This document shows, one piece after another, positions 19,238 to 23,652 of a stretch of DNA of 64,000 nt (position 1 is its first letter; each line of letters begins with the position of its first letter). The position numbers and the translations under genes are program-made. Location of the stretch: positions 1 to 64,000 of the forward strand of contig JAFSXX010000002.1 in NCBI GenBank assembly GCA_017443845.1, given 5' to 3'. The notes under the pieces were generated by a model. It was not told the origin of the DNA and did not search any database. It saw only the letters and a list, made by a program, of their open reading frames with translations. Origin of the DNA: Bacteroidales bacterium (GTDB lineage: Bacteria > Bacteroidota > Bacteroidia > Bacteroidales > UBA932).

Positions 19238-20566
19238 ATGCGGAAACGATTCGATACCGCACTTGAGAGCCTCTCCAGCGAAAAGGAGAGGCTCTCGGGT
19301 ATTCTGCTGGCCGTCAGCGGCGGTGTCGATTCGATGGCTATGCTCTCGCTGGCCGCATCAAGCCCCCTTGCGGGACGTATCGGCGCGGCCCATATGAATT
19401 TCTCCATGCGCGGGGCCGAAAGTGACGGCGACGAAGCCTTGGTGAGGGATTGGTGCGCTGAGCGCGGCATTCCGCTCTTTGTCAAACGGGTGGATACCGC
19501 CGCTTATGCGCGTGAGCACGGAGTGTCGATAGAGATGGCGGCGCGCGAACTGCGTTATGCCTGGTTCGAAGAATTGCTCGGCAATGAAGGTTTCGGCTGC
19601 GTGGCGGTCGCCCACAACCGGAACGACAGTGCGGAAACGCTTATCTTAAACCTGCTGCGCGGCACCGGCTTGCGCGGTATTTCGGGCATCCGTCCACGAA
19701 ACGGCAAGGTAATCAGGCCTATGCTCGGTTTCAGCCGCAGCGAGATTGAGGATTATGCCCGCGGCAACGGGGTCCCGTTCCGCACCGATTCTACCAACCT
19801 CGAGTCGGAATACTCCCGCAACCGCATCCGTAACGAAGTCTTCCCTGAGTTCGAAAAGATCAACCCCTCGTTCCTCAGGAGCCTTTCGGCCGATATGGCC
19901 CGTTTTGCGGAGGCCGGTGATTTCCTGGCCCGGAAACTGGCCGAAGAGGAGCCTTTGTTTGTCAGACGTACCGCTCTTGAATGCGGCGCTCTGTTGGAGA
20001 TTGATTCAGCCGCTTTGGCTTCAGACCCTTTCCGGGCGCTCAGGCTCTTTACCCTGCTGGAGCCTTACGGATTCAACTCCGCGCAGCTGGAGCAACTCGA
20101 AGCGGTCATTGACGGTTCTGCCGGCAAGATATTCTCCGTCCCCGGTTACAGGCTTGTCAGCGGGAGCGGCAAGTGGTCCCTCTATGAGGATGTGTCTGAT
20201 CCTTCTGATCTTGCCAGTCGGGTCAGTGTCACTGTTATCCCCAGGCCGGAAGGCTTCAATCCGGCAAATCCGCCGGCAGGCACTCTCTATGCGGATGCCT
20301 CCAAACTCACTTTTCCGCTCACTTTCCGCAGCTGGCAGGAGGGAGACAGTTTCAGGCCGCTCGGTATGAAGGGCTTCCGCAAGGTGAGCGACTTTTTCAA
20401 CGACCTCAAGCTCGACATCGAACAGAAACGCCGCCAGATTATAGTCACCACTGAAGATCCCACAGGCGCCGAGCAGATAGTCTGCATAGCGAACCGCCGC
20501 CTCGATGACCGTTTCAAGGTCACTGAGGCGACGGATCGGATTGCCGTCATTTCGATGGCGGAATAG
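19238..20566 (+). CDS. tilS: tRNA(Ile)-lysidine synthetase
   Basis: This 442-residue ATP pyrophosphatase modifies C34 of the CAU-anticodon tRNA-Ile to lysidine, an essential step for reading AUA. The PP-loop motif SGGVDS is at residues 27-32, followed by HMNFSMRGAESDGDEA and a conserved N/C-terminal arrangement ending in the TilS_C domain (FRSWQEGDSFRPLGMKG). The last 28 codons and stop lie in an 89-bp sequence that is repeated at 21677-21765. The gene is intact, but its 3' end may have been supplied by the inserted cassette. Confidence 0.96.
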   Translation: MRKRFDTALESLSSEKERLSGILLAVSGGVDSMAMLSLAASSPLAGRIGAAHMNFSMRGAESDGDEALVRDWCAERGIPLFVKRVDTAAYAREHGVSIEMAARELRYAWFEELLGNEGFGCVAVAHNRNDSAETLILNLLRGTGLRGISGIRPRNGKVIRPMLGFSRSEIEDYARGNGVPFRTDSTNLESEYSRNRIRNEVFPEFEKINPSFLRSLSADMARFAEAGDFLARKLAEEEPLFVRRTALECGALLEIDSAALASDPFRALRLFTLLEPYGFNSAQLEQLEAVIDGSAGKIFSVPGYRLVSGSGKWSLYEDVSDPSDLASRVSVTVIPRPEGFNPANPPAGTLYADASKLTFPLTFRSWQEGDSFRPLGMKGFRKVSDFFNDLKLDIEQKRRQIIVTTEDPTGAEQIVCIANRRLDDRFKVTEATDRIAVISMAE

Positions 20567-20569
20567 ATT
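20481..20569 (+). repeat. Direct repeat, proximal copy (3' end of tilS)
   Basis: These 89 bp encode the last 28 residues and stop of TilS. They match 21677-21765 at all but two positions: GAT versus GAC for Asp and GAA versus GAG for Glu. Similarity ends abruptly on both sides of each copy. Two third-position changes without any amino-acid change indicate that both copies descend from selected coding sequence. Confidence 0.95.
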
Positions 20570-20586
20570 GTTTTATATTCGCTAAA

Positions 20587-20817
20587 TTGTTATATATTAG
20601 TTCTTTCGTTCAAAATTCCACACAGCTGATAAAGTCCTCTCAAGTTTTGCCTCCTCTTATAGAGTTTGGTGCCTCTGTTGTAGGAAGTGAAGCTGTTAAA
20701 TATCTTCCCGTAAAGAGTTTTTCGGATTTCCTCAAGACAAATGCTCCGACGCTACCTATGGTTATGCCACCATATAATCCTTACTGTTATCAGGCTATAT
20801 GGCGTACCAGATATTAA
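20587..20817 (+). pseudogene. Possible gene fragment or short protein
   Basis: An open frame of 76 codons begins with TTG, not ATG, and has no clear ribosome-binding site. Its product, ending NPYCYQAIWRTRY, is not recognised. It could be the 3' end of a gene whose start was lost when the cassette formed. The frame differs from tilS, so it is not a readthrough product. Confidence 0.3.
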
Positions 20818-20829
20818 TGAAGATGATTT

Positions 20830-21285
20830 ATGGATAATGTATCAACATCAGAAACTATAAAATCGCTAATCATCGTAATGATGATTGTTTTGTTGTGTAT
20901 TTTCAGTATCTATATTCCTCGGGAAGCGTATATATACTTGAAAGAACACTCAAAAAAGTATGACTGTGAATCTGTTGCGTATTTAGACACAGTAATTGCA
21001 ACCGGCATTTCTCATAATCATAATTCCGAAAGAGTAATTTGCATCTTTCATTACTTTGACGGGCAGGTACGTAGAGAATATAAAATCATAAACGATAAGA
21101 ATTATATTCTTCCAAAAGATTTTGTAATCCCAATACGATACCAGCGTAAAAATCCAGCAAAAGTACTTATAGACCATCAGAGAATAGTCCCATACAAGGA
21201 CTCATTATTTGTATTAATTAAAAGGGGTATATGGTTAGATGATATGATAGTGGTTTTGAATAATGAGAAAGAGAGTTCACACTGA
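20830..21285 (+). CDS. Small membrane-anchored protein, DUF3592-like pattern
   Basis: This 151-residue protein has one N-terminal transmembrane helix (SLIIVMMIVLLCIFSIYIP, about 13-31) and a soluble domain. The pattern of a beta-rich domain with ILPKDFVIPIRYQRKNPAKVLID recalls DUF3592-type domains (a Y..xNP motif following a short basic strand), though the resemblance is weak. Codons are strongly AT-biased, unlike its neighbours. It overlaps the next gene by 23 nt, so the two are coupled. An immunity or phage-defence accessory role is possible but unsupported. Confidence 0.6.
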   Translation: MDNVSTSETIKSLIIVMMIVLLCIFSIYIPREAYIYLKEHSKKYDCESVAYLDTVIATGISHNHNSERVICIFHYFDGQVRREYKIINDKNYILPKDFVIPIRYQRKNPAKVLIDHQRIVPYKDSLFVLIKRGIWLDDMIVVLNNEKESSH

Positions 21286-21595
21286 TACATCCAAAGATAA
21301 TAATAGTGGATGCTTCAACCTATTGATTGCATTTCTGCTAATAATTGTTGCTCATATCTATGTGTCAATTGAAGACGCTGGGATCAACAATGGCCCGACA
21401 ACCGAAGCCATTATAGAACAAATATGGCCCGCATATTCGAGCAATCAATGTTATATAGTGTATTCTTTTCCTTTGGAAAAAAATGTGTATTATGGAGTAT
21501 CTACAACTCCAAAAGAGGATTCGTTATATGTAGGAAAAAGGTTGCTGATAAAATATAATGAAAGCAAACCTTGGAAATCCAGATATGTTTTTTGA
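21263..21595 (+). CDS. Small membrane-anchored protein, second cassette gene
   Basis: This 110-residue protein has a short basic N-terminus, one transmembrane helix (FNLLIAFLLIIVAHIYVS, about 18-35) and a soluble part ending YVGKRLLIKYNESKPWKSRYVF. The end resembles that of the preceding protein (a strand, then Y plus a basic/proline segment), so the pair may be diverged homologues with similar topology. It shares their low GC. The gene ends 81 bp before the second tilS tail. Function unknown. Confidence 0.55.
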   Translation: MRKRVHTDTSKDNNSGCFNLLIAFLLIIVAHIYVSIEDAGINNGPTTEAIIEQIWPAYSSNQCYIVYSFPLEKNVYYGVSTTPKEDSLYVGKRLLIKYNESKPWKSRYVF

Positions 21596-21676
21596 TTGTC
21601 TTAACAATGATACAATACTATCGTGATTTAAGACAGGTGCCTAAGTTAAAAAAAGGCTTAACTGCATCTTCTGGCT

Positions 21677-21765
21677 TCTGCATAGCGAACCGCCGCCTCG
21701 ACGACCGTTTCAAGGTCACTGAGGCGACGGATCGGATTGCCGTCATTTCGATGGCGGAGTAGATT
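21677..21765 (+). repeat. Direct repeat, distal copy (tilS 3' remnant)
   Basis: This copy encodes the same 28 residues and stop as the tilS end but has no tilS gene in front of it. It lies 2 bp from the sppA stop codon, a spacing typical of convergent genes here, so it is probably the original chromosomal tilS end left behind by insertion. Confidence 0.9.
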
Positions 21766-21767
21766 TT

Positions 21768-23549
21768 CTACCTGAAATCGTAAATATATGGCAGGCGCGC
21801 CAGGGTGACGAAGGTCTCGTTCCGGAGCCTGGAGTATGCCGCCTCGATAGGGAAGAGGGGATCCGTTGCGGTGCGCCCTGCGGTTTCGATGCCGGCCTGG
21901 GCGGAGGAGAATCCCTTCATCAGTTTTTCGTACGCCGTTTCGACTGCAGGATACTCGACGATGCGCAGTTCCTTTCCGTCGCCCACGAGGCTCTCGGCGT
22001 AGCGGATGGCATCGACGAGGCCGCCGCGCTCGTCGGCGAGGCCGATGCGCAGGGCGTCGGTGCCTGTCCAGACGCGGCCCTGTCCGATCTCGTCAACCTG
22101 CTCTACCGTCATCTTGCGGCCTTCCGCCACGAGGGAAGTGAAGTCGGTGTAAACCTTCTCGACATTGGACTCCATATATTTGACCTCAGCGGCGTCGAAA
22201 GGACGCATCAGGCTCATCACATCGCTGTGCTTGTTGGAATTGATAGAGGCTACATTGACTCCTACCTTGTTCCTGAGGGCCTTGCCGAATGAGGGAACCA
22301 TCGAGAATACGCCGATGGAGCCGGTGATGGTGGTATTGTCCACGAAGATCTTGTCGGCGCGGGCGGAGATCCAGTATCCGCCGGATGCCGCATAGTCGCC
22401 GTAGCTTGCCACCACGGGCTTGACAGCCTTGAGGAGGCCGAGTTCGTGGTTGATCATCTCGGCGCCCTGGGCGCTTCCGCCGGGGGAGTTGACGCGAAGG
22501 ACTACGGCCTTGACGGTGGAGTCGCGCCTTATCTCGGAGAGGATGCCCGCGAATTCGGTACCGGCGATGCCGCCGCTCTGCATAGGGGAGTTCTCGACAA
22601 CTATCTCGCCGTCGGCATAGACTACTGCTATCTTGTCCTTTATCTTGAGGGACTGCTTGACCTTGCTCTTGGCATAGTCGGCCACATCCACGAACTTGAG
22701 GTCCTTGACGTCCTTTGCGTCGCAGATGCCACAGAGATAATCCTCAAGGTCGCTGCGGTAGCAGAGCTCGTCAACAATGCCCTTTTCGAGGAGCACCTTG
22801 GCGTTGGTCAGATCGAGATTATCAATCCATGAGTTGAACTCTTCGGCAGTAAAATCCCTGGAATCTGCGATTTCCGATACCAGCGAATTCCAGATGCCGT
22901 CGATGAGCACCTGGTTCTGTTCGCGGTTCTCGGGGGTGAGCTCATTCTTGGTGAACTGCTCGCCTGCGGCCTTGTACTTTCCGTGGCGGATGAGCTGCAT
23001 ATCGATGCCGAGTTTGTCGAGCGCATCCTTGAAGAAAACTATACCTGAACTCATTCCGAACATCATGGCGTCGCCGTAGGCGTTGAACATTATCTTGTCG
23101 GCAACCGATGCCAGGTAATATCCCTGATTGGTGAGGATGTCGGAATATGAGATGATCGCCTTGCCCGACTCGCGGAAGCGCGAGAGGGCTGCGCGCACCT
23201 CTTCTGTTGCCGAAAGGCTCATCGTAGCGGCATTCTCCGGCTTCATATAGATAAACTTTATCTGGGGATCCTCTGCTGCGGCTTCAATTGCCTTGACCAT
23301 ATCGTAAAGGGAGATCGAAGTGCCGAAAGAGGGGCTCGATCCCACGATCGAGAAGGATTCCTGGCTCTGCTCGGTGACGGGCTTGGAGAAATCCAGGCGG
23401 AGGATTTTCTCGCCCGCGGGCAGGCTCGTCGTTTTTCCGGCCATTCCTGCTATCGAGCCGATAAGGGAGAAGAAGAGCAGGCACCCTACTATCGATGCCA
23501 GTATGCATCCAAGGGTGGAACCGAAGACTATTTTCCAAAAAGTTTTCAT
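21768..23549 (-). CDS. sppA: Signal peptide peptidase SppA
   Basis: This 593-residue membrane-anchored serine protease degrades cleaved signal peptides. An N-terminal helix ([21 protein letters not shown]) is followed by two tandem ClpP-like domains, as in the long 67-kDa type. The catalytic Lys is in [13 protein letters not shown] of the first domain and the Ser in YAASGGYWI of the second; [11 protein letters not shown] precedes the latter. The ATG at 23549 begins the membrane segment. It converges on tilS and the cassette. Confidence 0.95.
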
Positions 23550-23603
23550 ATCTGGTATAATAATAAATGATGATTTTGCAGTGCCTAAAGGGCACGCGAA
23601 TTG

Positions 23604-23611
23604 CAAATATA
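23604..23611 (-). promoter_or_regulatory. -7 box for sppA
   Basis: The minus strand reads TATATTTG, 54 nt upstream of the sppA ATG and within the gap shared with the divergent receptor gene. No clear -33 element. Confidence 0.45.
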
Positions 23612-23652
23612 GGCAAAACTCAATAACTTCGCTCCGCATTCATAAAATAGAT

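Follow-up and report, generated by a model that had tools for sequence, protein, structure and literature searches.

An insert between duplicated tilS ends in a Bacteroidales genome and its likeness to insertions with long target duplication

Introduction

Little is settled about how sets of toxin and antidote genes spread when no mobility enzyme accompanies them. The question arises at one locus of the window analyzed here, a 64,000-nucleotide stretch of a Bacteroidales genome, where the 3' end of tilS occurs twice around a low-GC segment: how did this segment come to lie between two gene ends, and why is the gene still whole? The first-pass annotation of this DNA had proposed a candidate for an undescribed type of mobile cassette that probably brought its own tilS end and displaced the old one. 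Our analysis points elsewhere. The segment is probably a horizontally acquired fragment, put in by illegitimate insertion without a recombinase, in the course of which 89 bp of the target were duplicated, and the same process would have acted at asd and, probably, at other gene ends.

Results

Two tilS ends surround a low-GC segment

The two copies of the 89-nt direct repeat match at 87 of 89 positions (98%), are spaced 1196 bp apart, and are the only copies of this sequence in the genome (Table 1). They enclose an insert with 34% GC, compared with a GC of 0.56 in the flanks. Both mismatches, GAT/GAC and GAA/GAG, are synonymous in tilS. The gene itself is intact, with Pfam matches to PF01171 (E 1.4e-49) and TilS_C (E 8.8e-6). 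The distal copy is redundant and ends 2 bp before the stop codon of the convergent sppA gene; the tilS and sppA stops are separated by 5 bp. ORF and family scans found no recombinase or integrase inside or beside the insert. The repeat described by the first-pass annotation was borne out.

The repeat is far beyond chance, because exact direct repeats of at least 20 bp at distances of 400–12,000 bp have an expectation of 0.016 in the genome, and none appeared in three order-3 Markov simulations. Since the genome is metagenome-assembled (57 contigs, 93% complete), an artefact of assembly or binning was considered. This is very improbable: the copies are not identical but differ at two positions, each junction is well within a 65-kb contig, and another contig holds an independent event that has the same anatomy and related cargo.

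Table 1. Positions of the features at the tilS locus (numbered in the window) and of the further inserts (genome:contig:positions, where G000 is the window's genome and C-numbers are its contigs)
Feature	Position	Strand	Evidence or detail
tilS, tRNA(Ile)-lysidine synthetase, 442 aa, target gene	19238..20566	+	Pfam PF01171, TilS_C
Proximal 89-bp duplication copy, functional tilS 3' end	20481..20569	+	Direct repeat search
Insert, 1,107 bp	20570..21676	.	Orthologous G024 site without insert; GC 0.341
ORF1, 76 aa, 5'-truncated remnant directly at insert start, no family	20587..20817	+	
ORF2, 151 aa, N-terminal TM helix and beta domain	20830..21285	+	Low-confidence model
ORF3, 110 aa, one TM helix and small DUF3592-like beta domain	21263..21595	+	pLDDT 86
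Distal duplication copy, redundant tilS 3' end, native sppA junction	21677..21765	+	
sppA, signal peptide peptidase S49, convergent neighbor marking native junction	21768..23639	-	Pfam Peptidase_S49 E 4.5e-67
Insert at asd, with repeats	G000:C12:89322-91899		79-bp repeats (78/79)
HipBA module at nudix gene 3' end	G000:C57:78331-80024		33-bp repeats (32/33)
AbiEi/AbiEii pair	G000:C14:3309-4836		Two exact copies of 36-bp terminator, nowhere else in genome
Rhs toxin/immunity locus at hemW, 9.9 kb	G000:C37:40286-50230		Exact 28-bp repeats
AAA_14/DUF4143 ATPase after rpsJ	G000:C12:56671-58363		Exact 20-bp copy of rpsJ end

The insert carries two small genes and one remnant

The cargo had been described as two small membrane proteins. 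Both are present, but a truncated ORF at the insert start had been overlooked. This ORF1 may derive from the 3' part of a toxin gene; toward its end it has a 19-bp stretch that recurs ahead of the ORF2 relative on contig C71 of the congener G024. Its matches within the family were antisense noise and were discarded. ORF2 and ORF3 are each predicted to have one N-terminal transmembrane helix and a small beta-rich part, in a low-confidence model for ORF2 (pLDDT 46) and in a model with a pLDDT of 86 for ORF3. The relatives of ORF3 resemble DUF3592 at scores below the cut-off only, and a Foldseek search with the ORF3 model returned no significant match.

Within the family, ORF2 has two relatives. 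One lies on contig C12 of the window's genome, where the ORF2/ORF3 pair has its single paralogous pair elsewhere in that genome (38% identical); the other, on C71 of G024, adjoins an IS3-type transposase and is the one relative of ORF2/3 in the genome_contigs database. No relatives of either gene were found in viral contigs, nor of ORF2 in plasmids. Both genes may be immunity-like, as polymorphic toxin immunity proteins would be; the association observed is that with a TNT toxin tip in the C12 insert described below.

The site is empty in a congener

In G024, a different species of the same genus whose TilS shares 67% amino acid identity with that of the window (the comparison is thus between species), the 3' ends of tilS and sppA face each other directly, with one tilS end and no insert. 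This is the empty site that the first-pass annotation had predicted. No hit to a second tilS tail was obtained in any of the 13 relatives with sppA close to tilS (G024 and 12 others). Together, these observations place the insertion in the lineage leading to the genome of the window.

A related cassette lies at an unrelated target

The paralogous pair on C12 belongs to a second insert, of 2,420 bp and 37% GC, flanked by a direct repeat that comprises the asd promoter and the first 22 bases of the gene and is unrelated to the sequence duplicated at tilS. The corresponding comF–asd site of G024 is empty, with the repeat in single copy. The insert encodes a TNT toxin domain (E 5.3e-25) without the rest of the toxin gene, that is, an orphan toxin tip, which is followed by an immunity-like ORF. 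Remnants of an older toxin-immunity unit lie at the left end of the insert: part of another toxin end, and the beginning of this same immunity gene.

The cargo pairs share just 38% identity, against 98–99% between the repeats that flank them. The two inserts therefore represent separate recent insertions of related cargo rather than one element hopping, and each would have come with a new target duplication of its own. The two repeat mismatches that G024 allows to be polarized, one at tilS and one at asd, both have the derived base in the redundant copy, as would be expected if target duplication were followed by drift. The related cassette at an unrelated target, the derived base in the redundant copy and the lack of a second tail in the relatives speak against a tilS-specific mobile cassette with its own tilS end.

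Further low-GC inserts lie at gene ends

Direct repeats were listed over 1.95 of the 2.06 Mb of the genome, and tandem coding repeats, paralogues, dispersed repeats and repeats beside Y1 transposase-like genes were filtered out. From the filtered list, further inserts were picked by hand. Four more low-GC inserts lie between exact or near-exact direct repeats of 20–36 bp at gene ends (Table 1). The joined nudix–lolA flanks of the HipBA module match G024 as one contiguous stretch, and the site is therefore empty there. Across the six inserts, no recombinase was found, and comparison of their ends revealed neither terminal inverted repeats nor a common end or core motif. As separate observations, the Rhs locus at hemW holds a displaced 585-aa Rhs fragment and two low-GC small genes, and rplC, which usually adjoins rpsJ, sits on another contig (C56).

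The hemW repeats differ from the others in one respect. The exact 28-bp core gives way to gene ends that are homologous but diverged: the one next to the insert reads ITEEILI*, the native one IIAEIL*, and the three codons that they share differ by synonymous bases only. Judged from these sequences, the incoming DNA at hemW may have brought its own hemW end, which would have replaced the original one; the idea of a gene-end-carrying insert, which is not supported for tilS, thus seems to have one instance in this genome. The divergence also keeps alive a rival explanation, in which the cassette excises as a circle together with the host gene end and re-enters the same gene end in another strain by RecA-type homologous recombination, bringing its own tilS tail. 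The synonymous nature of both tilS mismatches, as between functional alleles, would suit such a route, as would the hemW ends. However, the polarizable bases at tilS and asd place the change in the redundant copy, no donor was found, and the first insertion at each site would still need explaining. We therefore consider this route rather unlikely for the tilS segment.

Discussion

The tilS segment is best read as an insertion with duplication of its target, and a plausible course of events can be outlined. A linear DNA fragment that held two membrane immunity-like genes and an orphan toxin remnant would have arrived by horizontal transfer and been joined in where a break had left long staggered ends, or else through template switching. 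Fill-in would then produce a long and variable target duplication, and only insertions that leave the target gene functional would survive; at the tilS/sppA junction, the 89-bp duplication would have kept TilS whole. A related cassette would have reached asd by the same process, as probably did other toxin/antidote modules at other gene ends, and recombination between the repeats may later excise such segments.

This anatomy has a precedent, and the label of an undescribed type was accordingly too strong. Insertion with long target duplication is known mainly from restriction-modification genes of Helicobacter (Nobusato 2000 and Furuta 2010, as cited in PMC3874152, PMC3031569 and PMC1643837), with duplications of the order of 100 bp. 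As in that system, the unit here is foreign and of the toxin/antidote type, long target repeats of variable length flank it, a transposase is lacking and a relative carries the empty allele. In G024, the insert is absent at tilS–sppA and comF–asd, as the sequence shows, and at nudix–lolA, as the contiguous match shows; the duplications are long and variable, at 89 and 79 bp, with 20–36 bp in the other candidates; and ORF and family scans and end comparison detected no transposase, integrase or inverted repeats. Unlike the published cases, the lineage is Bacteroidales, the comparison is between species rather than strains, and the cargo consists of orphan toxin/immunity genes, with toxin-antitoxin modules elsewhere in the genome. 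No restriction-modification family was found among the cargo ORFs, but such genes are the usual association and lie outside the mechanism itself. Except in cargo, the tilS and asd inserts match the known anatomy, and we file them under insertion with long target duplication, here with toxin/antidote cargo. Several points count against this reading: the hemW end looks insert-borne, which plain target duplication would not predict; the range of 20–89 bp lies partly below the published order of length; the empty sites come from a different species; and the other inserts were chosen by hand.

Other systems of Bacteroidales and beyond share some of these features. The rAID arrays of Bacteroidales (PMC12247911) also represent low-GC orphan immunity-like genes gained by these bacteria, but these encode a tyrosine recombinase, form longer arrays of co-oriented genes and have conserved motifs between the genes, none of which is seen in the tilS insert. 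The truncated ORFs at both loci, a TNT tip with immunity-like genes at asd and ORF1 at tilS, have a further parallel. Orphan toxin-tip/immunity modules occur next to Rhs/CDI genes, whereas these two inserts lie at housekeeping genes with target duplications and not beside a full-length toxin gene.

Known integrative elements insert at the 3' ends of protein genes, and some restore the gene end. The tilS locus resembles these in that the gene end is duplicated and the gene is intact, and the restored ends at the target genes could suggest the remnant or satellite of a tyrosine-recombinase element that targets gene 3' ends, with the enzyme lost or acting in trans. Such an origin is, however, quite improbable. 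The duplications of 20–89 bp have unrelated sequences at the six targets, one of which is a promoter and gene 5' end; no recombinase is encoded in any insert; the inserts share no att core or end motif; and the related element at asd does not reuse an att block. The tilS insert does not represent an integrase-type element with specificity for tilS.

If the target-duplication reading is extended to all six inserts, a general recombinase-free process may act repeatedly in this Bacteroidales lineage and leave toxin/antidote modules (HipBA, AbiE, Rhs and orphan toxin-immunity cassettes) at the ends of genes. Its 20–89-bp duplications would turn the modules into cassettes that preserve the gene, can be excised precisely and may move again via their own repeats. 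We offer this extension tentatively, as less likely than not and with more doubt than the reading of tilS and asd. The findings suggest that a poorly understood insertion route, known until now from restriction enzymes, has a wider reach. If a single genome holds no fewer than two, and probably six, events of this kind, with immunity, toxin-antitoxin and polymorphic-toxin modules as cargo, the process becomes general and open to testing; the duplications also provide a simple sequence signature for finding further inserts.

Several other repeat pairs were set aside. The repeats at C12 2434 and on C29 lie beside Y1 transposase-like genes, and that on C49 was judged to belong to the same family. 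On C56, the left copy of the gcvH/HipA pair runs on into native sequence, which leaves no clean target duplication; there, a HipA_C gene is followed directly by a gcvH-end fragment that has an internal deletion and lies 2 kb downstream from the intact gcvH (G000:C56:31417-33491). The repeats on C17 are promoter and terminator repeats. Three near-identical 40-bp GC-rich terminator-like hairpins stand there between low-GC gene blocks (G000:C17:26544-33815) that encode secreted/lipoprotein-like and protease-like proteins. The 20599/23282 repeat on C37 comes from paralogous serpins, whose 86-bp 3' ends are 98% identical while the genes have otherwise diverged, beside a protease-like secreted protein (G000:C37:20600-24485). 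The repeat on C52 stems from a tandem gene duplication also present in G024; serpin genes occur on this contig as well, beside genes for a sigma factor, an outer membrane beta-barrel protein and small lipoprotein-like proteins (G000:C52:25250-28781).
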